Assembly (NCBI GenBank): GCA_903888395.1
Contig: CAISTO010000263.1
Span: forward strand, 1-32,801
Direction: 5' to 3'
Length of the DNA stretch: 32,801 nt
Origin: an uncultured Bacteroidota bacterium
GTDB taxonomy: Bacteria > Bacteroidota > Bacteroidia > UKL13-3
A program made the position numbers and the translations under genes. Positions 3,664 to 32,644 of the stretch are shown piece by piece; the first letter of the stretch is position 1, and each line of letters opens with the position of its first letter. The notes beneath the pieces are model-generated. The model saw only the letters and a program-made list of their open reading frames with translations. It searched no databases and was not told where the DNA came from.

Positions 3664-4779
3664 ATGAGTATAAAAATTATACATACAGCCGATAATCATA
3701 TTGGAATTAGCTATAACAGTGTTTCTCAAGCCAAAACAGAATTAGTATTAGAGCGCTTAACCTCGTTAAAGCGAATAGTTGATGAAGGAAATAAAGAAGG
3801 TGCAAATTATTTAGTGATAGCAGGTGATTTATTTGATGTAACAAAAGTGGTAAAGACTAGAATAATGGAGGTTATTAAAGTTTTGAAAACTTTCAATGAA
3901 AAGGTTATCATTATACCAGGCAACCACGATTTTTTTGTGGATGAATTTGACTCACTTTGGAACTATTTTAAAACAAATATTGATACTGAAAAAATTATTG
4001 TTTTAGATAAATACGAAGTGTTCATTGACCACTTAGGTGAGCAAGAAGTTAGGTTTTATCCAGCAGCATGCAGAACATTGCATTCTGAACAAAATATGAT
4101 TGGTTGGGTTAATTTAGAGAAGAAACCTATTCACTCAATAAATATTGGAATTGCACATGGAAACGTGGAAGGTCTTGGAAGAGATGATGATGGTAAATAT
4201 TTTAACATGACTCATTCTGAATTAACTAATTCCGGCCTCGACCTTTGGTTATTAGGACATATTCATGTTGCATATCCAACACAAAATGAGGTAAATGAAA
4301 ACCCAGGATATTTTATGAGTGGCACACACATGCCCGACTCTTGGAAGTCGACAAATGCTGGAAATGCATGGATAATAGAAATACATGAAGACAAAAAAGT
4401 AAAGGCTAAAAAATTTCAACCCTCTGCGTTTAAATATAAAGTAATAGAAAGTGATATCCGTTCACTTTCCGACATTGATAATTTTAAAAATCAAATATTG
4501 AATTGTGACAAAAAAAATACTGCAGTTAGGTTAAATTTAACGGGCACATTAGTTCAAAATGATTTATCTTATTTGGAGGAAACAATCAATGAAATTCGCA
4601 ATGAATTTATACATTTTGAAGAAAACAAATATATAAAGAGAAGGATAGATATAGATGCTATCAATAGCGAATTTGTTGAAGGTTCATTACCGCATATTTT
4701 ACTTTCAGAATTACTTCTTGAAGATCCGGATGGTATGAGTACACAAAAAGCATTTGAGGCTATTAAAAAAAATAATTAA
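3664..4779 (+). CDS. SbcD/YhaO-like metallophosphoesterase (DNA repair exonuclease)
   Basis: IIHTADNHIG, VIAGDLFD, IPGNHD, GHIHVA motifs of the Mre11/SbcD calcineurin-like fold. Confidence 0.88.
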   Translation: MSIKIIHTADNHIGISYNSVSQAKTELVLERLTSLKRIVDEGNKEGANYLVIAGDLFDVTKVVKTRIMEVIKVLKTFNEKVIIIPGNHDFFVDEFDSLWNYFKTNIDTEKIIVLDKYEVFIDHLGEQEVRFYPAACRTLHSEQNMIGWVNLEKKPIHSINIGIAHGNVEGLGRDDDGKYFNMTHSELTNSGLDLWLLGHIHVAYPTQNEVNENPGYFMSGTHMPDSWKSTNAGNAWIIEIHEDKKVKAKKFQPSAFKYKVIESDIRSLSDIDNFKNQILNCDKKNTAVRLNLTGTLVQNDLSYLEETINEIRNEFIHFEENKYIKRRIDIDAINSEFVEGSLPHILLSELLLEDPDGMSTQKAFEAIKKNN

Positions 4780-4784
4780 AAAAC

Positions 4785-7229
4785 ATGAAACTATTAAATT
4801 TACACTTGCACCCTTTTGCAGGCACCATTGATAAACAATATAATTTTGAAGATGGCCTTAATGTGGTATACGGACATAATGAAGCGGGAAAATCAACCAT
4901 TGTAAATGCTTTTTTAGCAGTTTTACTCGAATCAACGGATTTAACAAAAACAGTGTTTAAAAACACCTTGGCAAAATACATGCCCATTGGTGGCGATACT
5001 ATAAATATAGATTTAACATTTGAAGTAGCGGGAATTAAATACCAACTTAAAAAATCGTGGGGAGCTAATAATTTTTCTTCTTTAAATAAAGTTGGTGAGG
5101 CTCCAATAAATAATGCGGATACCGTTCAGAAAGAATTATTTAAATTATTGAATTTAAATAAATCAACTGTTAGAGAAATGATTTTTACTACACAAGCAAA
5201 AATTTCAAATACAATAGATGCTATTAAAAAAGATCCTGAAATAAATAATAGTTTAGACCAAATATTAAGGGGTGCAATTTTAAATACTGGCGGCATTATT
5301 CCCGAAAAATTAAAAGTACAACTTGAAAAAGAATTTAATGAACTTTCGTTGAATTGGAATTTGGAAAATGATGCTCCATCAATTAGTTCAAATAATAAAG
5401 GTTCATATGAAAATAGATGGGAAAAAGGTTTAGGAGAAATTTTAAAATTGGCTTATGAAATAAATGACAAACAAAAGGCCAAATTATATAGGGAACAATA
5501 TGATGAGAAGCTAAGTAACCTAGCTAATGAGATAAATATTCTGAGAGGCCACGTAAATTTAGATCAAAATTATATTGATTCTAATAAAGCTTTGATGGAA
5601 AGTTTATCCAATAGAATAACAATTCAAAGTGAACTAAAAAGTATTGAGTCAAATAAAGAAATAATTGTTGGTGCTCAGTCGGAATGGTATAAAATTAATG
5701 CCATGTTGCCGGTGTTAAGTGGTCAAATTATTGCTGATAAGGAGCAATTAAATCAATTAAATACTGAACTTGAAAATGCAAGAAAATCAGGTGATATAAC
5801 AATAAAAATTGCACAATTTGATAAGGTAAGTGCTTTAAAAATAAAATATGATACCACCAAAGAATTATTAACAAATACAAAGGTGGTAACAAATGTTGAC
5901 GTAGAAAATGTTAAAAAATTAGAGGATGAACTTATAAAAGCTCAAAACGAATTAAATGCATTGGCGTCTGCTCAAAATTTTATTGTTGAAATACAACCTA
6001 AGAAAAATTTAACCATTGAACTTCAACATGGAACAGCATTGGCCTCTCAAATTAATCTTGTTCAAGGAGAACCTTATGCCATTGAAGTAAATAAGAGTTT
6101 TGTATATTCTTCCGATGAAGTAACAATTCAAGTAAAATCATTGACACAAGAAATTAGTATATTAAACGATAAAATCACCTTGCTTAAAAAACAATTTGAA
6201 GATGCTGTAGCAATATTTGGAGTGATTAATATGGAGGAATTGAAACAAAATAATTTAATCTATAATCAAAATAATGATCAATATAAATTAGCAAAAACCA
6301 CTTTTGAAAACAGTATTGCAGGTACAACTTTCGAAAAATTAAAACAAGATATTGAAGAATTAAAAAATATTCCAAAAACAAGAGAAAAAGAGGTTTTAGA
6401 GAAATTATATCAAAATTTAATTGGTAAAATGGCAACTGATGATAATTCATATAAATTGTATGAGAAAAAGTTAAAAGAATTTGAAAACCTTTATACCTCC
6501 TTAGAAAATTTAGTGGAATTAATAATTGGTATCAGACAAAATGAAAAAATCACTCAAGACAAATTGAATTTACTTCCTGCCATTGATCCTTCCAATGATA
6601 TGGAAACATTTCAAATTGAATTTAAAGCCGCAAACGAAAGATTTAATAAAAATAAAAGTTTACTACAAGAAAAAGAATTAGAGAGAGCGAAACATGAAGG
6701 ACAAGAACAATTTGATTTAGCAATGGAAATACAAGATCAAATTGAATTATTAGATAGGAAAAAAAATCAAAAAGTTCAAGAAGCAAAAGCCATTCAATTG
6801 GTATTGAACAAGCTGAATGATATATTAAATAGGGCAACTATTAATCCATACCAAGCCTACGAAACTAATTTAAGTAATTATTTATCTGTTTTATCAGGTG
6901 GAAAATATCAATCTCTATCCAATTCTGAAGTTTCACCAAATGCTATTAAAAACACAACAAATAATTTAGAATTACCAATAGAAATGCTTTCTCAAGGTAC
7001 GTCTGGAATTCTTGGTTTGTCATTACGACTTGCAATGGCTGATTACTTTTTAGGTGAAAACAATGGCTTTATTGCCTTTGATGATCCTATGGTTGATTTT
7101 GATGAAAATAGGCAATTATTTGCAGCTACTTGTTTACAAAATTATTCGCAAAACAAACAGGTAATCATTTTCACTTGCCATCAATCTCATGCTGCGCATT
7201 TAGGTGGTTATTTAATTAATTTAAACTAA
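4785..7229 (+). CDS. SbcC/YhaN-like SMC-type AAA ATPase
   Basis: N-terminal VVYGHNEAGKSTIVNAFLAV Walker A, long coiled coil, C-terminal LSQGTSGILGLSLRLAMADYF...FIAFDDPMVDFD signature/Walker B; 5 nt downstream of the SbcD-like gene. Confidence 0.85.
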   Translation: MKLLNLHLHPFAGTIDKQYNFEDGLNVVYGHNEAGKSTIVNAFLAVLLESTDLTKTVFKNTLAKYMPIGGDTINIDLTFEVAGIKYQLKKSWGANNFSSLNKVGEAPINNADTVQKELFKLLNLNKSTVREMIFTTQAKISNTIDAIKKDPEINNSLDQILRGAILNTGGIIPEKLKVQLEKEFNELSLNWNLENDAPSISSNNKGSYENRWEKGLGEILKLAYEINDKQKAKLYREQYDEKLSNLANEINILRGHVNLDQNYIDSNKALMESLSNRITIQSELKSIESNKEIIVGAQSEWYKINAMLPVLSGQIIADKEQLNQLNTELENARKSGDITIKIAQFDKVSALKIKYDTTKELLTNTKVVTNVDVENVKKLEDELIKAQNELNALASAQNFIVEIQPKKNLTIELQHGTALASQINLVQGEPYAIEVNKSFVYSSDEVTIQVKSLTQEISILNDKITLLKKQFEDAVAIFGVINMEELKQNNLIYNQNNDQYKLAKTTFENSIAGTTFEKLKQDIEELKNIPKTREKEVLEKLYQNLIGKMATDDNSYKLYEKKLKEFENLYTSLENLVELIIGIRQNEKITQDKLNLLPAIDPSNDMETFQIEFKAANERFNKNKSLLQEKELERAKHEGQEQFDLAMEIQDQIELLDRKKNQKVQEAKAIQLVLNKLNDILNRATINPYQAYETNLSNYLSVLSGGKYQSLSNSEVSPNAIKNTTNNLELPIEMLSQGTSGILGLSLRLAMADYFLGENNGFIAFDDPMVDFDENRQLFAATCLQNYSQNKQVIIFTCHQSHAAHLGGYLINLN

Positions 7230-10726: not shown

Positions 10727-12703
10727 TTAAAATAAAAACATATTTTCACCTATGATCTCTTTAAAATGCTCGTAAATCATCACCATTGCTAAGGTATCTA
10801 ATTCACAGTATTTCAATAAAGCTTTAGTAATTTCTGTTCTTTCTTTTTCAGTCATATCTTGATACTGCAATTTAGAATACCCTGTAAGCGCTGCTCCTCC
10901 ATCTGATATTTCTTCTATTTCTGAAATGTTGTTTTTTAAATCCTCATCTATCCAACCATCAAATACCGGTGGTAACATTTTGTATGGATTTACAATTCTA
11001 CCATCTTCTATTTTTAACCAAATATGATTGACATCAAAATTTTTACTTGTCAAATTAATTGAACCAATTGCTTGACTGTATTTTTGTTTTAAATAGTCAC
11101 TCGAATTCAATGAGGCTGGCAATACTGCTTTGATGGAATTGGAACCTTTTGTATATGGATTATAATAATAATCTTTTACAATTTTATTTAAATCCACCAT
11201 GTTACGATCTCCCTCCCATTTTTCAACGCTTTTATCAGTTGATTTGGTAATAGTTTTTAGAAATGTAATTAATTCTTCCTTGTCCACTTCATTGCTTGCA
11301 TTCAGTTGTACTATAATTGCATTTAAAATCGAATTCTCATGGGTAGCAAATTTAAAAATAGTTCCATTATCGTTCTCTAATGCTTTTTTTAATGCTCGGG
11401 CAAAAATGAAATTCGGAAATTCTCCTGGGGTATTGCTTATAAATTCAGATTTATGCTCAATGGTTCCATCCTCAAGATACATATGATGAGAGAATTGAAA
11501 TGCAACTGACTCATATGGTTTTCTGCCAGCAGTAAAAGGCAGGGCAACAGTGCTTGTTTCAAAATCGATAAAATGCAATGGGAATTTCCATTTTGCCATT
11601 TCGTTTTTCAAACCATCCTTTTCTACATGTATTGAATTGTCATTGTCTCTTGCTTTTTCTACCTGAATCCATTGTCTTTCACCCGATGAAATTTTATCGG
11701 CTAAAACTTCAATTTTAAAATCATCTTCGGTAAGGTCTTGCATAAAAAGACGATTGGATTCCATCAAATCTTTGCCTCTAAAATTCCAAACTTCCATGGC
11801 ATTTGGCTTCTTAAAATCATCTTCTAGCCAATTATGTTGCTTTTTAAAACAATATTCAAATCCAGACAACAAACCGTTTTGTTTGTCTTCAATAGTAGCC
11901 TTGAATTCGCATTTCTTACAGGCACTATATTTTGTTTCCCAATTAATATATTTTGAGGCTAAATAGGAATCTTTAAACAATTTTAAGGCCTCGTGGAAAC
12001 CTAAATTATCATGGTATCTATATTTGTCATTAATAATATCATTTACAATAATATCTACATTTATTTCCGATAAAACGGATTCTCCAATTTCCTCAATGCT
12101 GCTAACTTTTGTAATAATATCTGTTCTAGGATTTCCATTAGCAGGAACTCTAAATAGTTGATTTAATCCATCAATTGTAGCTGATTTAGTTTTATCAGCC
12201 ATCATAAAATAAGCCTCAAATTGAAAGTTAGGACAAGTTAGCGAGGCAATATGTTTTTGAAAAGCCAAATCAAATAAATAAGGTTTCCAGCTACTAACTA
12301 ATCCACCACGGACACCAACGAAAATATTTTTTTCATTGGGATTGAAAGATTTTGCTTTCACTTCAATCAATCGAATGTGATTGCCTTTTTTTACTAAAAT
12401 ATCTGTTCTAATAAAGAAATTATCTACTAAAAAAGCGGCCTCGTATATAACAACATTCTCTAATAATAATGCTTCCTGAGTTAACTGAAATGCTTTTTCG
12501 TATTCGTAATTCTCCGTATTAATAAAAATACCATTTGGATAATGCAAACGTGCCAATTCTTCTACTTGAAATCCGCCTTTTGCAAGCGCCTGCAAAAAAG
12601 AATCAGCATTTTTTTGATTTGCAAATTGCTTATCACTTGTAAAAAACAATTTATTAGGACATTCTAGCCCTAACTTAAAACGAGATTTTGAGAGTACTTT
12701 CAT
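10727..12703 (-). CDS. DUF2779 protein (Cas4-like PD-(D/E)XK nuclease plus DEDD exonuclease-like domain)
   Basis: N-terminal LSKSRFKLGLECPNKLFFT, IRLIEVKAKS (ExK), Cys cluster CKKCEFKA...YC; C-terminal HFIDFETSTVALPF...PYESVAFQFSHH and LLKYCELDTLAMVMIYEH. Confidence 0.8.
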   Translation of the reverse strand: MKVLSKSRFKLGLECPNKLFFTSDKQFANQKNADSFLQALAKGGFQVEELARLHYPNGIFINTENYEYEKAFQLTQEALLLENVVIYEAAFLVDNFFIRTDILVKKGNHIRLIEVKAKSFNPNEKNIFVGVRGGLVSSWKPYLFDLAFQKHIASLTCPNFQFEAYFMMADKTKSATIDGLNQLFRVPANGNPRTDIITKVSSIEEIGESVLSEINVDIIVNDIINDKYRYHDNLGFHEALKLFKDSYLASKYINWETKYSACKKCEFKATIEDKQNGLLSGFEYCFKKQHNWLEDDFKKPNAMEVWNFRGKDLMESNRLFMQDLTEDDFKIEVLADKISSGERQWIQVEKARDNDNSIHVEKDGLKNEMAKWKFPLHFIDFETSTVALPFTAGRKPYESVAFQFSHHMYLEDGTIEHKSEFISNTPGEFPNFIFARALKKALENDNGTIFKFATHENSILNAIIVQLNASNEVDKEELITFLKTITKSTDKSVEKWEGDRNMVDLNKIVKDYYYNPYTKGSNSIKAVLPASLNSSDYLKQKYSQAIGSINLTSKNFDVNHIWLKIEDGRIVNPYKMLPPVFDGWIDEDLKNNISEIEEISDGGAALTGYSKLQYQDMTEKERTEITKALLKYCELDTLAMVMIYEHFKEIIGENMFLF

Positions 12704-24598: not shown

Positions 24599-25147
24599 TT
24601 ATAAAGACAAATACAATCTTTCACTGTTAAATTTCGCAATGGGATTTACCCTACCTAAATTCCCGTATACCTCTTTAACAATTTTGTAAGTTGTTTCAAC
24701 CGGCATGTGAATGGTGTCGCTTAACAAGCTGCTGAATAATTCATTCGATTCGTCAATATCACGTTGTTTAATATTTCTAAAATTATAAAATTCAGCTTCC
24801 ATCATCTCAGATATAAACATCCCAGTATAAAAACCTTTAAGCTTATACCTTTCAATAAACTGATTTGCGTTACACCATATGTAAAAATTATTTATATTGT
24901 TTTTTAAAAATGGAATAAAACTTTCATCAATCACATAACCATTTTCTGTATAAAACTGTCCTACTGCTAACAAGCCATTTGGTGATCCATGTCCCATCAT
25001 CATTACCCTATCGCTCAATTTAATTAAATCTATAATTGTTGGTTTATCCGTGTCAGCAGTAACTAATGTTTTATTTGGAATGCTAGCATATATGAAATCT
25101 AAAAAATCTGTTGTGCTGTCTTGTGGATGTATAATTAGTGTTTTCAT
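24599..25147 (-). CDS. Uncharacterised protein (GHGSPNGL ... IWCNAN)
   Basis: RVMMMGHGSPNGLLAVG and NFYIWCNANQF; start placed at ATG 25147 (MKTLIIHPQDS) because the -7 box lies inside the ORF track's longer N-terminus. Confidence 0.55.
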   Translation of the reverse strand: MKTLIIHPQDSTTDFLDFIYASIPNKTLVTADTDKPTIIDLIKLSDRVMMMGHGSPNGLLAVGQFYTENGYVIDESFIPFLKNNINNFYIWCNANQFIERYKLKGFYTGMFISEMMEAEFYNFRNIKQRDIDESNELFSSLLSDTIHMPVETTYKIVKEVYGNLGRVNPIAKFNSERLYLSL

Positions 25148-25151
25148 GCCA

Positions 25152-25198
25152 CAAATTTCATTCAACCAATTTTATAATCAGTATTAAGTAACATTACT
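25152..25198 (-). promoter_or_regulatory. Palindrome AGTAATGTTACT (25187-25198, minus reading) + N27 + GAAATTTG -7-like box (25159-25152)
   Basis: Same architecture, one mismatch in the -7 box. Confidence 0.55.
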
Positions 25199-25268: not shown

Positions 25269-25307
25269 TACTATGCATTAACATTGCATAGTATTGCAAT
25301 AAATTTG
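25269..25307 (+). promoter_or_regulatory. WYL-type operator candidate TACTATGCATTAACATTGCATAGTA (25269-25293) + N6 + TAAATTTG (25300-25307)
   Basis: 9-bp arms; shared with sites at 26498 and 30764, same 6-nt gap to the -7 box. Confidence 0.65.
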
Positions 25308-25360: not shown

Positions 25361-26500
25361 ATGGGAGAAAACAAAAAAATTAAACAAGCAGAATTATACC
25401 CACTTTCAAAAAAAGAATTTAAAAAATTATATAACGATGCGTGGAAAAATGGTTGGGTTTATGGTAAATTTTTTCAAGAATTATATGATGAATATTTAAT
25501 AAACTGGGTTTATTTTGTTGATTACCTTGATTTACTTATGGGTTTAAACAATGAAAACAGAAAATACAAAAGAATTCCTGATAACTTTGTAATTGTTAAA
25601 GCAAAAAATCAAAAACCTATATTAATTGAGGCAAAAGATTTTTATAATTTTGATATAGAGATTCCTTTTAATAAATCTAAAAACATTGAAATTCTAATTG
25701 GTGAGGCACCTCCTTATTGGAAAGGAAATGCGGAGGAAAATGAAAAGGCTTATTTCTATAATCCGAGACAAACATATAACAGTCCATGGCTTAATACTCC
25801 TGTAAACTGGAAAAGTAATAAAAGGAAATTTCGAGATAAGAATGAAAAAGAAAAAAATGATTTTTATAAAACAGCAAAACTAGAATTATTAGCAAGTAAA
25901 AGAGTTGTTTTATTTGATATTTTCCCATTCCCAATTATTCAAGATACTAAAGTAAGAACTGAAATTACTGGTGGTTATGCAAATCATATTGAAAATTATT
26001 TTTTAAAAAAGTATACAGAAATTACTGAATATTTAAAATTTAAAGAACAAAATATTACATTTAGTCATGGAATGGTAGCAACTGAATTAGGTTCAATTCA
26101 GTTTCTTTGCGATAAAACAATTGAAAATTTTCCTATATATCAGTCTATTATTAAAAATAGTATTGAATTTAATGCTTTTGATGATTGGGAATCATGGATA
26201 CAAAAACTAATTAACATTACTCCAAACAAAGCTAAAATAAGCGAAGAAAAAACAGATATGAAAAATCATTATTTGAAATATAAAATAAATTATATTCCTA
26301 TTGTAAAAGTAAATTCAGATGAAAAATATGATTTTTCAGATAAGTTGAAATTTATTAGAAATCTCATGGGAATAGATAGTTTATCTATTAATGAATCAGA
26401 TATACAAAAAATATACAAAAAAATAACAATGCTACCAATTTTTATAAAGGGTCAAAGCGTTGTTATTAATGGTATTTTTATAAATGGAAATATATCCTAA
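25361..26500 (+). CDS. Uncharacterised protein (possible uracil-DNA-glycosylase-like fold)
   Basis: 379-aa ORF; IEILIGEAPPYWKGN recalls the GExPG motif A of the UDG superfamily, but assignment is weak. Confidence 0.4.
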   Translation: MGENKKIKQAELYPLSKKEFKKLYNDAWKNGWVYGKFFQELYDEYLINWVYFVDYLDLLMGLNNENRKYKRIPDNFVIVKAKNQKPILIEAKDFYNFDIEIPFNKSKNIEILIGEAPPYWKGNAEENEKAYFYNPRQTYNSPWLNTPVNWKSNKRKFRDKNEKEKNDFYKTAKLELLASKRVVLFDIFPFPIIQDTKVRTEITGGYANHIENYFLKKYTEITEYLKFKEQNITFSHGMVATELGSIQFLCDKTIENFPIYQSIIKNSIEFNAFDDWESWIQKLINITPNKAKISEEKTDMKNHYLKYKINYIPIVKVNSDEKYDFSDKLKFIRNLMGIDSLSINESDIQKIYKKITMLPIFIKGQSVVINGIFINGNIS

Positions 26501-26537
26501 CTCTGCAATCATATTGCAGAGTTATTTAGTATCTTTG
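26498..26537 (+). promoter_or_regulatory. WYL-type operator candidate TAACTCTGCAAT-CAT-ATTGCAGAGTTA (26498-26524) and TATCTTTG -7 box (26530-26537)
   Basis: Perfect 12-bp arms with 3-nt spacer; begins in the stop codon of the upstream gene. Confidence 0.75.
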
Positions 26538-26551
26538 TTAAAAAATTAATT

Positions 26552-28069
26552 ATGTCAGAAAAATATCCTCATGTATTATCCAAATCCCGCTTTGTGTCGG
26601 GTGTGCAATGTGCTAAAAAATTATTTTTAGAATTGAACCAAAAAGAATTGAAACCTGCTATTTCTGCTAGTCAGCAAGCTGTTTTTGATCAAGGACATAG
26701 AATTGGTAAAATGGCTCAAGACCTTTATCCAAATGGAATTGATTTAACCAGTTTAACACATTTTGATTATACCGATGCCATAGACAATACTTTAAATGAA
26801 ATGCGAAAAAAAACACCTGTTTTATATGAAGCAGCATTTTATAACAATGAAGTATTATCGGTTTTGGATATTTTATTACATGATGCCAATGGAAATATAC
26901 ATGCCATAGAAGTTAAAAGCAGTGGCTCACTGAATGATTATTATATTACAGATGCCTCTTTACAATATTGGGTGATGGCAAATGCGGGACATGCCCCTGA
27001 AACCTTTTCTATTTTAAATATAAATACCAATTATAAAAAAAATGGACCAATTGATTTAAAAGATTTTTTTAAGATAACAGATATCACAAAAACAGTCATT
27101 GCAAAACAAGCATGGATTTCAGAAAATATTGAACAGCTTAAACTAATCCTAAAAGGTTCGGAAGTTCCAGTAAAAGAAATTGGAAAGCATTGTTCAGACC
27201 CGTTCCAATGTGATTTTAAAAGTCATTGTTGGGGTAATTTATTAGACCCAGATAAAATTTTCAATATTTATGGCGGAGGAAAAAAAATGTGGGACTTGTA
27301 CCATGATGGAATTACATATTTAGCTGACATCCCAGAAAATTATAAATTAAACCACCGACAAATTTGCCAAGTAAATGGTCAAAAAACTGGAGCAAGTTAT
27401 ATAGACAAAAAAAACATTGCCACCTTTATAAATAAGGCAGTTTATCCATTGCATTTTTTTGATTTTGAAACTATCAATACCATCGTTCCTGTATTAAATG
27501 GAACCAAACCCTTTCAGCAAGTTGGATTTCAATATTCATTACATATTTTAAACAATATGAATGAAGAACCAATACACAAAGAATTTTTAGCGAATGAAAA
27601 TGATTTTAGCAATATTCAAGCTAAGAATCCTCGTCAAGCCATGATTGACCAAATGAAAGCTGATTTTGGGGAAACAGGAAGTATTGTAGCTTACAAAGCT
27701 GATTTTGAAATGGGAATTATTAAAAAATTAGCAGAGGATTTTCCAAATGATAAAATATTTTTAGAAAGCTTAATTACACGTTTTATTGATTTATTAGATG
27801 TTTTTAGTAATGCTTGGTACTACTTGCCTGTAATGGGGAAAAGCGCATCAATAAAAGATGTTTTACCAACATTGGTTCCTCATTTAACTTATAAAGGTTT
27901 AAACATTAATAATGGTGAATTAGCCAGTAAAACATTTGCAAGCATGGTGGAGGGAAATTATGTGGGCAATTTAAATGACACAAGAAACGATTTATTAGCT
28001 TATTGCAAATTAGATACTTTAGCCATGTTTGAAATTTGGAAAGTGTTAAACAATGAAATAAAAATTTAA
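26552..28069 (+). CDS. DUF2779 protein (Cas4-like nuclease plus DEDD-like domain)
   Basis: LSKSRFVSGVQCAKKLFLE, IHAIEVKSSG, HCSDPFQCDFKSHC, HFFDFETINTIVPVLNGTKPFQQVGFQYSLH, LAYCKLDTLAMFEIW. Confidence 0.82.
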   Translation: MSEKYPHVLSKSRFVSGVQCAKKLFLELNQKELKPAISASQQAVFDQGHRIGKMAQDLYPNGIDLTSLTHFDYTDAIDNTLNEMRKKTPVLYEAAFYNNEVLSVLDILLHDANGNIHAIEVKSSGSLNDYYITDASLQYWVMANAGHAPETFSILNINTNYKKNGPIDLKDFFKITDITKTVIAKQAWISENIEQLKLILKGSEVPVKEIGKHCSDPFQCDFKSHCWGNLLDPDKIFNIYGGGKKMWDLYHDGITYLADIPENYKLNHRQICQVNGQKTGASYIDKKNIATFINKAVYPLHFFDFETINTIVPVLNGTKPFQQVGFQYSLHILNNMNEEPIHKEFLANENDFSNIQAKNPRQAMIDQMKADFGETGSIVAYKADFEMGIIKKLAEDFPNDKIFLESLITRFIDLLDVFSNAWYYLPVMGKSASIKDVLPTLVPHLTYKGLNINNGELASKTFASMVEGNYVGNLNDTRNDLLAYCKLDTLAMFEIWKVLNNEIKI

Positions 28070-28072
28070 AAA

Positions 28073-28960
28073 ATGATAGTATTAGTAAAAGTAAATAAAA
28101 CGTATAAATATGGAACCGATGCAAAATTAGCTGCTTACAGTTCTTGGTGTATTGGCAGTTTGTTAGACAATGAAGCTCTTAGAAATGAATATAAATATTT
28201 GGTGGCTTATGCCAATAATGAAATAGTTGGAACATACCAAATTCAAGGGTTAGCTTTAGCCAACAATAATTTTAGGGGTAATCGAAGAATCAAATTTAAT
28301 TTAGCCGATGTTGACGAAAATTGCAGTGCTCAATTAAGTAAAATAATCAATGATTTAAAATCAACCTGCTCTAATAAAGTAAGAAATAAAAGTCCATTTA
28401 GCTTAATCAGTAGAGAACATTTAAATGAATTTGAGGTGGAGCATCATCACCTCAATTGCAACCCATTAAATGAAATTCCTGTTTTGGATTCCGAAGAATT
28501 AGAAACATTAATAAACCTAAATGGCAGCCATATAAGTAATCAACATTGGTTAAAAATTACTGTTAAAAGGAACACTTATGATTCATTTAGTAAACAGCAT
28601 TCCATTAGCCATTTATCAATCGCGGAACTACATCCCAATGGAAAAATGACCTTGAACATTTCAAACAATGCAAGTGGTAAAATGATGCTTGTAAAAAACA
28701 CCATTTCAAGCTCAGAAAAACAAGATTTGTTAGCAATATTTACTACTTTTAATAACAATTCAAAAAATGCTATCAAACAAATTATAGACAGTGATGTAAC
28801 ATCACATGTTGCTCATTTCAATGAAATGGCAATAACATTTGAGAGTTTTGAAGATGCCTCACACACTATTAAAAACAATCATGAACATTGGAATGGCAAT
28901 GTATTGTTTACCAAAAGTGGCTTACTCAATGATATCGTAAATTTAATGACAATATGTTAA
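28073..28960 (+). CDS. Hypothetical protein
   Basis: 4 nt downstream of DUF2779 gene; N-terminal AYANNEIVGTYQIQGLALANNNFRGNRRIKFNL could be a PUA/ASCH-like beta domain (weak). Confidence 0.5.
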   Translation: MIVLVKVNKTYKYGTDAKLAAYSSWCIGSLLDNEALRNEYKYLVAYANNEIVGTYQIQGLALANNNFRGNRRIKFNLADVDENCSAQLSKIINDLKSTCSNKVRNKSPFSLISREHLNEFEVEHHHLNCNPLNEIPVLDSEELETLINLNGSHISNQHWLKITVKRNTYDSFSKQHSISHLSIAELHPNGKMTLNISNNASGKMMLVKNTISSSEKQDLLAIFTTFNNNSKNAIKQIIDSDVTSHVAHFNEMAITFESFEDASHTIKNNHEHWNGNVLFTKSGLLNDIVNLMTIC

Positions 28961-28965
28961 TATTT

Positions 28966-29610
28966 TTAAACTACAGGGTAATACACCGTTCCCCAATCTT
29001 CGTCAATATTTTCTAACATAATATCAATGATTAAAGGCACAAGTAAAGATAACATATTAGCACCATCATTTACCTGAGCCCTATTTACTTTACTTTTAAA
29101 AGTAGCCCCACCATGTATTAACTGGTTCCTAACAGTGTACAACCTATCTAAAACAATTTCTAATAGCAAGTCTACTTTTTGATTAGATAAATATTGGTGT
29201 GCATTAGCTATCGATATTTGAAGAAGTTTGTGCCAATCAACTTTATCACCCCTATTATAATCCCAAAAAGGTTTGAAAACATATTTGTTTTCAATTAATA
29301 AGCGAATATTTGCAGGGAATTTTAACCACATTAAATTATAAAACCTATCATCAACATCGTGAGTAACCAGTTTATTTATAAAAATTTTGAATCGTTGTTG
29401 TTCATTTAAACTAATACTATTTTCTTCCATTGCATAACAAGAATTGAATGCAATCCATAAACTAATGAATTTCAAATCCATATTATCATCAATTTCCTCG
29501 GCACATTTTAACCAACTTATGGCCCTGTGTATCCTAGTATTAATTGGCTTTTCGCCAATTTTAATCAAATTAAATTTTTCTTTTAAATAAATTGCATCAA
29601 ATGTTTTCAT
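28966..29610 (-). CDS. HEPN-like (Apea-type) protein
   Basis: All-helical sequence with C-terminal LYTVRNQLIHGG (R-x4-H), the HEPN RNase-type motif. Confidence 0.6.
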   Translation of the reverse strand: MKTFDAIYLKEKFNLIKIGEKPINTRIHRAISWLKCAEEIDDNMDLKFISLWIAFNSCYAMEENSISLNEQQRFKIFINKLVTHDVDDRFYNLMWLKFPANIRLLIENKYVFKPFWDYNRGDKVDWHKLLQISIANAHQYLSNQKVDLLLEIVLDRLYTVRNQLIHGGATFKSKVNRAQVNDGANMLSLLVPLIIDIMLENIDEDWGTVYYPVV

Positions 29611-29661
29611 ATTACTTACAATAATATAATTAAAGCGCTAAAATTATAATCCAATTTATTT

Positions 29662-30744
29662 TTAATTGACTATTTCAAAAAAATCCCTGAAACGACCCAA
29701 TAAAAATGAAAGTTCAGGTGCCCTTTTAAAAACAGTATTTGCATTTTCTGAATAGGGTAATAATTTTATTTTTATTATGACTGTCATTTCATTTTTTAAT
29801 TTATCAATTGAAATTATTTTTTGAGAATGATGCAATGGCATTTTCTTCACATAGGAAGCCGCCCAACCTTTGAATTTGATTTTTATATCTTCTATTTTCT
29901 CGTTTTCCCTATGATTCCAAATGCCAATACTATATTTGAAATAATCTTTTAGCTTAAAAAACTTTGCTAATTCTTTATAATTAAAATGAATGATTTCTTC
30001 TGTTTCCTGATCTAAAAGTACATCAACCTGAAGTTTAAAAATTTGATCTAATCGATAGTTTACAATATATTTTTTTTGATCGCTAACAACTGCTGCCGTT
30101 AAATAATAAATATTTTCATACAATCTAATTTGTAAAGGAGATACCTGATGCCATTTAGATTTATTTTTATTATCATCTAATTGATTTACATCTATGTAAT
30201 TGAATTCAATACATTCTTCTCTTTTAATATTACCTAATATTTTAATTGCTAAACTTATTATATCTTCTTCATTTATTAAACTAGGTTTAGTAACAATTAC
30301 CGCACTGGAACAAGCCATTTCTTCCTCGTCAATTTTGTAATCCTCTATCAAATTAGCCATAATTTTACTTACAGCTGGAATGTTTTCGTAATTTTTAAGT
30401 ATGCCAATTAAAAATGGAATGGTAAGTCGCTCATCTTCTTCCAAATCGCCAAATTCTGGCATAATTGCATTTTCAGGATAACGATATAATTTGTTTTCAT
30501 ATATCAAATTAAAAAACCATCCTTTCTTGTTTTTCCTTATCCCTGCATTACTATAAATAAAATCACCTAATCTTAAACTTTTTATATGGGAGTTCAACAT
30601 CCGAATCTTAATGGTTTCCATTCCTAGGCTAATTAATTTTTGGTTTACATAATTAAGTATTTCTTCTAGTGTGGAAGGTCTTGTCCTAATTAATTCATCA
30701 ATGAATTGAATTCTTATTTGCTTTGGAGAATTATAATTTAACAT
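29662..30744 (-). CDS. WYL-domain transcriptional regulator
   Basis: N-terminal wHTH-like region (RTRPSTLEEILNYVNQKL...), central IEFNYIDVN...WHQVSPLQIRLYENIYYLTAAVVSDQKKYIVNYRLDQI, typical WYL layout. Confidence 0.78.
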   Translation of the reverse strand: MLNYNSPKQIRIQFIDELIRTRPSTLEEILNYVNQKLISLGMETIKIRMLNSHIKSLRLGDFIYSNAGIRKNKKGWFFNLIYENKLYRYPENAIMPEFGDLEEDERLTIPFLIGILKNYENIPAVSKIMANLIEDYKIDEEEMACSSAVIVTKPSLINEEDIISLAIKILGNIKREECIEFNYIDVNQLDDNKNKSKWHQVSPLQIRLYENIYYLTAAVVSDQKKYIVNYRLDQIFKLQVDVLLDQETEEIIHFNYKELAKFFKLKDYFKYSIGIWNHRENEKIEDIKIKFKGWAASYVKKMPLHHSQKIISIDKLKNEMTVIIKIKLLPYSENANTVFKRAPELSFLLGRFRDFFEIVN

Positions 30745-30748
30745 GCTT

Positions 30749-30802
30749 CAAATATAATTTTTCTACTCTGCAATACCATTGCATAGTAAAAATATATATT
30801 TG
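30749..30802. promoter_or_regulatory. Divergent promoter with WYL-type operator TACTCTGCAAT-ACC-ATTGCATAGTA (30764-30788)
   Basis: Flanked by TATATTTG on the + strand (30795-30802, 6-nt gap) and TATATTTG on the - strand (30756-30749, 7-nt gap). Confidence 0.75.
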
Positions 30803-30907
30803 TTAAAAAAAATATTATTTGAACTCAGATACCTCATTTCAAAAAATAAAAAATTAAATTAAATACCTAACAGTTAATTATTTAACAATTATATCAAATA
30901 TAAAATT

Positions 30908-32569
30908 ATGGAATCAACACTGAACAATCCCTTGCTTACAAGTATTACTCATATATATGAAAACAGGGATGATTTATTTAAAAACACACTAATAATTGAA
31001 AATTTAAGTGCTGATTTTAAAACTGTAACTGACTTTTTATTAGTTGACGATAAAACCGCTGCTGTATTGTCTATAATCATATGCGAGCAAATAATGGGAG
31101 ACGGAAAGCCATTTAAAAAAACATTGAAAATTTTAGGTTTTAGTCCTTTAGACTTTATTTTTATAAGTAATAAATTTAAAGAACTTAAAAAGAAGGGTTG
31201 GGTCAGGCTATGCAAAAAAAGATACAATTCAAGGTCTGAAGACATAGAAATAGCGAAAGAATTAATGGATGCTATTATGTATAATAATATAGAAAAATTG
31301 ATAATTTATGAACCAAAGAATTTATCGGAGGCTTTACTACAAATTAGAAATTTTACTAAAAATATTATAGGTGACTTTTACCAAGATGAACTCATAGAAG
31401 CTACTTATGATTACATAGAAAGACTTACTACTTTTCCTTATATTAATCAAATTTTAGAAGAGGATAAACTTGAAAAATTAGAAAAAGTAATATTGATATG
31501 GCTTTCAGCTGAAAACATTTTTAATAAGGAAGAATTTGATTTAGATAATATTATAGAAATGTTTAGTGAAGACCATTCCGTTTCTTATAGTTTAAAACAA
31601 AGAATAATAAACCATGAAAGTATAATCATGAAAGATGGATACCTAGAATATTTGAAACCCAATTTAGCCGATTTTTCCTCCGTAAAATTAGGTGATAGAT
31701 TAACAGACTTACTAAATGTGCATTGCCCAAAAATGGAACATGTTAAAGTTGCACCCAAATATTGTCAATTGATTGATCCAAATGATGTAGAAACTCAGCA
31801 ATTGTTATTTAACGATAATAACAAAAAATCAATAGACGATATTATCAATCTTACTTCTGAGTCTAAATATTTAAATTTAACTAAAAAATTTACTGATAAG
31901 GGAATGAAACCGGGACTAACCATGTTGTTTTACGGATTACCTGGAACAGGAAAAACCGAATTGGTAAAACAAATTTCTAAAACACATAATAGAGCAATAT
32001 TTCAAGTGGAAATGTCGGCTATTAAAGACATGTTTGTGGGTAATTCCGAGAAAAATTTAAAAAGAGTTTTTAAAGATTATAGCGATGCGGTTAAACAATA
32101 TAAAATTACTCCCATACTGCTATTTAATGAAGCCGATGCAATATTAGGCAAAAGGAATTTAGTTCAAAATGCAGTTGATCAAATGCTCAATTCTATGCAA
32201 AATATTTTATTGCAGGAATTAGAAGATTTTAAAGGTATTTTTATAGCAACCACCAATCTAATTGAAAATATAGATGGAGCTTTTGACCGAAGGTTACTTT
32301 ATAAATTAAAGTTTGAAAACCCCAATGATGAAACTCGTTATAAAATATTACAAAATCAATTTGCAAATATCAATAACAAAACGCTAAAGCTAATTAGTAC
32401 GCAGCACCAATTAAGTGGCGGGCAAATTCAAAACATAAAAAAGAAGTTTGTAATTGACCAATTGCTTTTTGAAAACAATTCAAATATTTCTAATAAATTA
32501 ATTGATTTTATTGAAGAAGAAACACAGTTTAGGTCAATAACTAAAAACAAAATTGGATTTAATAAATAA
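30908..32569 (+). CDS. AAA+ ATPase (CDC48/VPS4-like ATPase module)
   Basis: TMLFYGLPGTGKTELVKQIS Walker A, PILLFNEADAILGKR Walker B, IFIATTNLIENIDGAFDRRL. Confidence 0.85.
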   Translation: MESTLNNPLLTSITHIYENRDDLFKNTLIIENLSADFKTVTDFLLVDDKTAAVLSIIICEQIMGDGKPFKKTLKILGFSPLDFIFISNKFKELKKKGWVRLCKKRYNSRSEDIEIAKELMDAIMYNNIEKLIIYEPKNLSEALLQIRNFTKNIIGDFYQDELIEATYDYIERLTTFPYINQILEEDKLEKLEKVILIWLSAENIFNKEEFDLDNIIEMFSEDHSVSYSLKQRIINHESIIMKDGYLEYLKPNLADFSSVKLGDRLTDLLNVHCPKMEHVKVAPKYCQLIDPNDVETQQLLFNDNNKKSIDDIINLTSESKYLNLTKKFTDKGMKPGLTMLFYGLPGTGKTELVKQISKTHNRAIFQVEMSAIKDMFVGNSEKNLKRVFKDYSDAVKQYKITPILLFNEADAILGKRNLVQNAVDQMLNSMQNILLQELEDFKGIFIATTNLIENIDGAFDRRLLYKLKFENPNDETRYKILQNQFANINNKTLKLISTQHQLSGGQIQNIKKKFVIDQLLFENNSNISNKLIDFIEEETQFRSITKNKIGFNK

Positions 32570-32605: not shown

Positions 32606-32644
32606 AAAAAACCTAGGTTAATTTGATAATTAATCTAGGTTTTT
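32606..32644. terminator. Rho-independent terminator
   Basis: AAAAACCTAGGTTAA-TTTGATAA-TTAATCTAGGTTTTT: 15-bp stem with one G.U pair, A tract and T tract (usable bidirectionally). Confidence 0.8.

Follow-up and report, generated by a model that had tools for sequence, protein, structure and literature searches.

A WYL-regulated cassette of nuclease, AAA ATPase and HEPN genes in an uncultured Bacteroidota bacterium as a candidate nucleic-acid damage or defence module

The contig CAISTO010000263.1 of an uncultured Bacteroidota bacterium (lineage UKL13-3; assembly GCA_903888395.1), analysed over its 32,801 nucleotides (nt) and here called the window, carries near its end six genes, for a protein with a GEAPP motif, a DUF2779 nuclease, a 295-aa orphan protein, a HEPN-type protein, a WYL regulator and an IetA-like AAA+ ATPase. 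An earlier note on this DNA had proposed them as a new defence-like system, and all six open reading frames were found where it placed them (Table 1). We consider it rather likely that the locus is a self-contained inducible module for nucleic-acid damage or defence under one WYL regulator. Three operators with a fixed promoter spacing tie the genes together, and the core of WYL regulator, IetA-like AAA ATPase and DUF2779 nuclease recurs, operators included, in two other Bacteroidota families. Relatives of the cassette genes occur in other phyla and on plasmids, and the cassette therefore probably serves an inducible response to attack by phages or to damage of nucleic acids.

Operators and promoters of the cassette

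The window contains three copies of a 23-bp palindrome (consensus ACTMTGCAWT-N3-ATTGCAKAGT), for which shuffled sequence gives an expectation of 0.02. The 3.28-Mb draft genome has no further copy at ≤2 mismatches and one weak site at 3 mismatches; the WYL-type operators by which the earlier note had linked the genes are therefore real, as is the terminator that it placed at the end of the cassette. All four gene-facing operator sides (those of the GEAPP, DUF2779 and AAA genes on the plus strand and that of the WYL gene on the minus strand) are followed, after a gap of 7 to 8 nt, by a perfect TAnnTTTG (6/6), a motif with a background rate of 0.0028 per intergenic position. At that spacing the two sides without a cassette gene, one of them facing the divergent gene at 24599, score 1/6 and 3/6.

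In Bacteroidota the housekeeping sigma factor uses TAnnTTTG as its −7 box, which spans −12 to −5 (PMC9723704). With the palindrome ending 7 to 8 nt before the box, the operator would cover about −42 to −20, including the −33 region. No TTG was found at the cassette promoters at the expected −33 spacing. Because the operator covers the −33 region and no TTG stands there, we infer that the −33 contact is supplied by the regulator instead. The arrangement holds elsewhere: sites located by the operator alone in five other loci (L065, L093, L096, L100 and L101; such handles denote loci) have a −7 box of 5-6/6 at gap 7, and sides without a cassette gene, across the sites scored, reach 1-3/6. The palindrome also stands in the WYL gene's own promoter, in the window (O3) and in L055, L065 and L093.

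Table 1. Features of the cassette and its surroundings in the window
Feature	Position	Strand	Remarks
Divergent gene	24599-25165		GHGS and WCNA motifs
Operator O1, ACTATGCATTAACATTGCATAGT	25270..25292		5' of GEAPP gene; conserved operator class in L055, L065, L093
−7 box, TAAATTTG	25300..25307	+	7 nt past O1
GEAPP-motif protein, 379 aa	25361..26500	+	no family match
Operator O2, ACTCTGCAATCATATTGCAGAGT	26500..26522		at GEAPP stop codon; position shared with L065
−7 box, TATCTTTG	26530..26537	+	7 nt past O2
DUF2779 nuclease	26552..28069	+	Cas4-like PD-(D/E)XK (four Cys) joined to DEDD-type exonuclease domain
295-aa orphan protein	28073..28960	+	starts 3 nt past DUF2779 stop; no family match
HEPN-type protein	28966..29610	−	3' of WYL, same operon; invariant RNQxxHGG
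WYL regulator	29662..30744	−	likely autoregulated; O3 in own promoter
−7 box of WYL-HEPN operon, TATATTTG	30749..30756	−	8 nt past O3
Operator O3, ACTCTGCAATACCATTGCATAGT	30765..30787		between divergent WYL and AAA genes; position shared with L065, L093
−7 box of AAA gene, TATATTTG	30795..30802	+	7 nt past O3
IetA-like AAA+ ATPase	30908..32569	+	~330-aa N-terminal region; adjoins WYL in five Bacteroidota families
Intrinsic terminator hairpin	32607..32644	+	17-nt arms, 94% complementary, T-run

The divergent gene, whose two motifs look caspase- or CHAT-like, was rejected as a regulon member, as no −7 box follows O1 in its direction and the gene is missing from L065. In another genome (G020; L056:5944-5966), a recD-recC pair is preceded at 440 nt by a perfect palindrome of this class, whose −7 box scores 5/6; the genome has a WYL orthologue that adjoins no cassette, and its recD palindrome is suggestive.

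Components and recurrence of the cassette

The domain calls of the earlier note were borne out, by profiles for the DUF2779, WYL and AAA proteins and by annotated homologues for the HEPN protein. The WYL protein scores 18.2 bits against Pfam WYL, below the cutoff of 21.8, and matches the PADLOC WYL profile at 2.9e-12. The 505-aa DUF2779 protein matches PF11074 at E 2.5e-34 (118.7 bits; cutoff, 23.3). Four cysteines (C20, C214, C220 and C226), D106, E120 and K122, and D304, E306, D413 and D488 are invariant in the three cassette copies, and we take them to be, respectively, Cas4-type cysteines, a PD-(D/E)XK site and a DEDD site. As its catalytic residues are invariant in all three copies, the protein is likely to be active as a nuclease. 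The AAA protein matches Pfam AAA at E 2.2e-22 and PADLOC IetA at 2.5e-28. The Walker B motif of the cassette ATPases reads FNEAD, with Asn where Asp is usual, in 4/4 aligned sequences (residues 406-410 in the window protein).

The HEPN protein has no Pfam family, and its full-length, 45%-identical homologues carry the annotation "HEPN domain-containing protein". The motif RNQxxHGG (R161, N162, Q163 and H166) is invariant in 10/10 homologues and fits the Rx4-6H motif of HEPN proteins, and the structural model is all-helical (pLDDT 84.6). Relatives of the GEAPP protein are found in L065 (49% identity), L057, L066, L067, L069 and L071-L073, with G114, E115, A116 and P118 invariant among them. The motif resembles the GEAPG of family-4 uracil-DNA glycosylases; that identity found no support in Pfam, a PDB sequence search or Foldseek and stays a lead, and the protein possibly acts in nucleic-acid processing. 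The window genome has a second, shorter member of the family (L066:7716-8609, C443; 32% identity), with no WYL gene, AAA gene or operator near it.

The earlier note had foreseen a WYL-controlled combination of nuclease, HEPN protein and ATPase. Its core was found again with operators in other genomes, and the HEPN and orphan proteins are accessory, with GEAPP in some cassettes. In L065, from another family, the WYL, GEAPP, DUF2779 and AAA proteins are 47%, 49%, 69% and 41% identical to those of the window, and operators stand at the same GEAPP/DUF2779 and WYL/AAA junctions with their boxes at gap 7. In a third family, L093 has a WYL-operator-AAA arrangement plus an operator followed by genes for a 297-aa protein and DUF2779 (44%); its operator has diverged (ACTACGCAA..TTGCGTAGT) and the box is still at gap 7. 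In a fourth family, L067 and L097 keep WYL, AAA, a 146-aa protein and a Cas4-like PDDEXK at one chromosomal site, to which one adds GEAPP, a 193-aa protein and PDDEXK_4 and the other adds two further proteins of no recognised kind. These differing genes, at one site in related species, resemble exchangeable cargo. An AAA gene adjoins WYL in 9/13 genomes with a good WYL match, from five families, a count of cases rather than independent events since many of the rows are related.

Mobile relatives and the promoter signature in other genomes

Alphaproteobacterial plasmids, most of them conjugative, carry full-length HEPN homologues (45% identity). A WYL gene lies within about 7 kb in most of the separate contexts examined, and in L103 and L105 it is the directly upstream operon partner of the HEPN gene, as in the window; WYL-HEPN operons thus occur in two phyla. 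A RecB-like nuclease of the TM0106 family is encoded nearby, frequently together with SbcCD, and on the viral contigs L113-L115 the same genes adjoin prophage tail genes. Annotated phages gave no WYL or HEPN match, and searches of viral contigs for WYL and GEAPP gave none either. A module of WYL, HEPN and a TM0106 helicase-nuclease, frequently joined by SbcCD, recurs in L103, L105, L106, L108 and L113, on alphaproteobacterial plasmids and next to prophage tail genes, and no PADLOC system fits it. The plasmid WYL proteins match the window protein as profiles (hhalign probability, 96%). Because the alphaproteobacterial WYL proteins are relatives at the profile level only, the pairing of WYL with HEPN is probably ancient or has arisen repeatedly.

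Plasmids of Bacteroidota and Campylobacterota carry further combinations: AAA+PDDEXK+WYL (L153; host, Segatella), PDDEXK+DUF2779+WYL (L154; host, Aliarcobacter), SbcCD+DUF2779+AAA (L152) and WYL+AAA (L155). The WYL gene of L153 has the operator/−7 signature with 3 mismatches. The window has an SbcD/SbcC pair (3664-7229) and a second, 658-aa DUF2779 protein (10727-12703), both without an operator, which recall plasmid clusters such as L152. A stand-alone DnaB C-terminal helicase is encoded at 2140-2952 of the window and again at L154:5256-5846, adjoining the Aliarcobacter genes.

Operator-N7-TAnnTTTG at ≤2 mismatches served as a probe of 295 genomes of the class and gave 16 matches against one control match; the pattern was drawn from the window, and the window's three matches are there by construction. 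One match, in G111, lies inside an open reading frame and was taken as chance. Outside the window and L093, matches stand 9 to 27 nt 5' of genes for RtcB (twice), RlaP, a T4-Rnl1-like ligase followed by PNKP, UvrD-PDDEXK and a Pif1 helicase. The RNA-repair loci among these (RtcB, RlaP, and RNA ligase with PNKP) are L143, L144, L145 and L148, in three genomes (G103, G306 and G178), and their promoters suggest that RNA repair in Bacteroidota is under WYL control. Five of the probe loci have a WYL gene next to them. As the WYL proteins of four such loci form a clade separate from the cassette type (99/99), two groups of WYL proteins share one promoter design.

The signature also stands 284 nt and 264 nt 5' of two retron-type reverse transcriptase genes (L147:7281-8891 and L149:5623-7129). 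These gaps leave room for a WYL-controlled non-coding RNA; Rfam gave none in either of them.

Interpretation and comparison with known systems

We propose the following mechanism. A WYL dimer would bind the palindrome over the −33 region, and nucleic-acid fragments (single-stranded DNA or oligonucleotides from infection or damage) would occupy its WYL domains. The fragment-bound protein would then help RNA polymerase to start at promoters without a recognisable −33 element, in the manner of PafBC and SiwR. Of the products, the DUF2779 protein would degrade DNA, the AAA ATPase would remodel a protein or DNA-protein substrate, and the HEPN protein would cleave RNA, perhaps as a last-resort arrest of growth.

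Several observations weigh against this interpretation. The HEPN gene is absent from the other Bacteroidota cassettes seen and missing in 294 other genomes of the class, and Foldseek of its confident model found no PDB fold match. The orphan protein has no homologue in those 294 genomes, on the plasmids or on the viral contigs. The GEAPP model is of low confidence (pLDDT 61.8) and gave no fold match in Foldseek; relatives of this protein also occur alone, and only some cassettes have one. Two loci depart from the usual spacing, L055 with gap 1 and L099 with gap 3, and the sites of family f28 are weak. In that family the WYL-AAA pair lies near a DnaA-like gene at the same place in four species, which resembles a resident function, and the targets of the signature elsewhere are mostly repair genes.

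The last two points belong to an alternative that is possible, if doubtful, namely, that the cassette is a DNA/RNA-repair regulon rather than a defence system, in which the WYL protein, as a sensor of damaged nucleic acid, turns on an end-processing nuclease, an ATPase and RNA-processing genes for self-repair. The RtcB, RlaP, ligase and helicase targets and the chromosomal, syntenic f28 pair favour it, and PafBC, SiwR and DriD act in DNA-damage responses. However, HEPN RNases act as effectors rather than in repair, the distribution of the cassettes is patchy (GEAPP in 3/395 and good WYL matches in 15/395 genomes of the class), cargo is swapped at one chromosomal site (L067 versus L097), relatives lie on plasmids and beside prophages, and retrons, a type of defence system, share the signature. 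On these grounds we rate defence against mobile DNA somewhat above plain repair, and the two readings need not be mutually exclusive. The antiviral reading of the earlier note is upheld in part: the plasmid and prophage contexts of the HEPN, TM0106/DUF2779 and WYL relatives agree with it, but it is not the sole reading, because the same signature elsewhere precedes RNA- and DNA-repair genes.

It is unlikely that the WYL protein is instead a repressor of an anti-phage island, in the manner of CapW or BrxR, which would block the −33 contact at four promoters until an infection-derived ligand released the toxic nuclease and RNase. Characterised WYL regulators of defence loci do repress and bind palindromes (PMC9122588, PMC9122601), genes for a self-harming nuclease and HEPN protein would need tight silencing, and the operator sits in the WYL gene's own promoter too. 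Against this, CapW palindromes overlap the −10 element and those of BrxR lie downstream of the predicted −10, whereas the palindromes of the window stop before the −7 box and no TTG awaits blocking at the −33 spacing. A comparable operator placement is that of SiwR, an activator, which binds a 19-bp palindrome between −35 and −10 of an adjacent operon (PMC10693628). In the case of PafBC, the protein is inserted between sigma region 4 and the promoter DNA (PMC11804915). By this analogy of placement, the WYL protein is more likely to be an activator like PafBC and SiwR than a repressor.

That the genes are chance neighbours in a gene-rich island, with only the WYL gene and its own promoter of any consequence, is most improbable and largely refuted: the orphan protein without relatives, the missing HEPN homologues and the WYL orthologues without cassette genes (L055 and L096) would fit it, but the shared operators and the co-occurrence of WYL, AAA and DUF2779 genes with operators in other families, for which the earlier note had called, contradict it.

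We tentatively extend the inducible-module interpretation as follows. Bacteroidota may carry a LexA-independent response to damage or phage in which WYL activators act at a stereotyped promoter (palindrome, 7 nt, TAnnTTTG), with the window cassette, RtcB/RlaP RNA repair, RNA ligase-PNKP, retrons and helicase-nucleases as its branches, the cassette itself being a new defence system of WYL regulator, IetA-like AAA ATPase, Cas4-like nuclease and exchangeable effectors. If so, one promoter signature would predict, genome by genome, which Bacteroidota genes respond to nucleic-acid damage or infection, an unnamed nuclease-ATPase-HEPN cassette would be tied to RNA-repair genes and retrons, and a WYL-based damage or defence response in Bacteroidota would become directly testable.

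The earlier note did not recognise the combination as a named system, and PADLOC agrees, giving no complete system and only partial matches of IetA, Cas4 and WYL type. The literature on WYL with HEPN, DUF2779, TM0106 or SbcC, which as covered here largely leaves out subscription papers and preprints, does not describe it either. The parts are of known kinds; neither their combination nor the promoter design that they share appears to have been described.

(i) The HEPN protein shares with HEPN-superfamily RNases the R-N-x3-H motif, an all-helical model and the annotation of its plasmid homologues, and differs from them in having neither a Pfam family nor a PDB fold match and in being coupled to a WYL regulator. 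(ii) The DUF2779 protein resembles the DUF2779/TM0106 RecB-like (Cas4-like) nucleases in its PF11074 match, Cas4-type cysteines and DEDD residues, but the plasmid TM0106 proteins, of ~1,100 aa, continue into a long C-terminal part with helicase-type hits that it does not have. (iii) The AAA protein is IetA-like over its AAA domain; unlike IetA of IetAS, it has a longer N terminus and reaches 87.7 bits against the NCBIfam NF042959 cutoff of 510, and the Pfam scan of the cassette genes found no peptidase family that could represent the serine protease partner IetS. (iv) With the CapW and BrxR loci of CBASS and BREX the cassette shares a WYL regulator of a nuclease-type operon, an autogenous palindrome and defence-like content (PMC9122588, PMC9122601); it differs in the distance of 7 to 8 nt that its operators keep from the −7 box, and Pfam and PADLOC scans found no CBASS or BREX genes in it. 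(v) From PafBC, SiwR and DriD the system of the window differs in phylum, in promoter type (Bacteroidota TAnnTTTG) and in targets (nuclease, AAA and HEPN), and its regulator is likely to be a homodimer on a 23-bp palindrome and would activate, by analogy, as they do. It shares with these activators a regulator that joins a helix-turn-helix to a WYL domain and, with PafBC and SiwR, an operator upstream of the −7 box and within the −35/−33 region, at a gap of 7 to 8 nt on 4/4 gene-facing sides.

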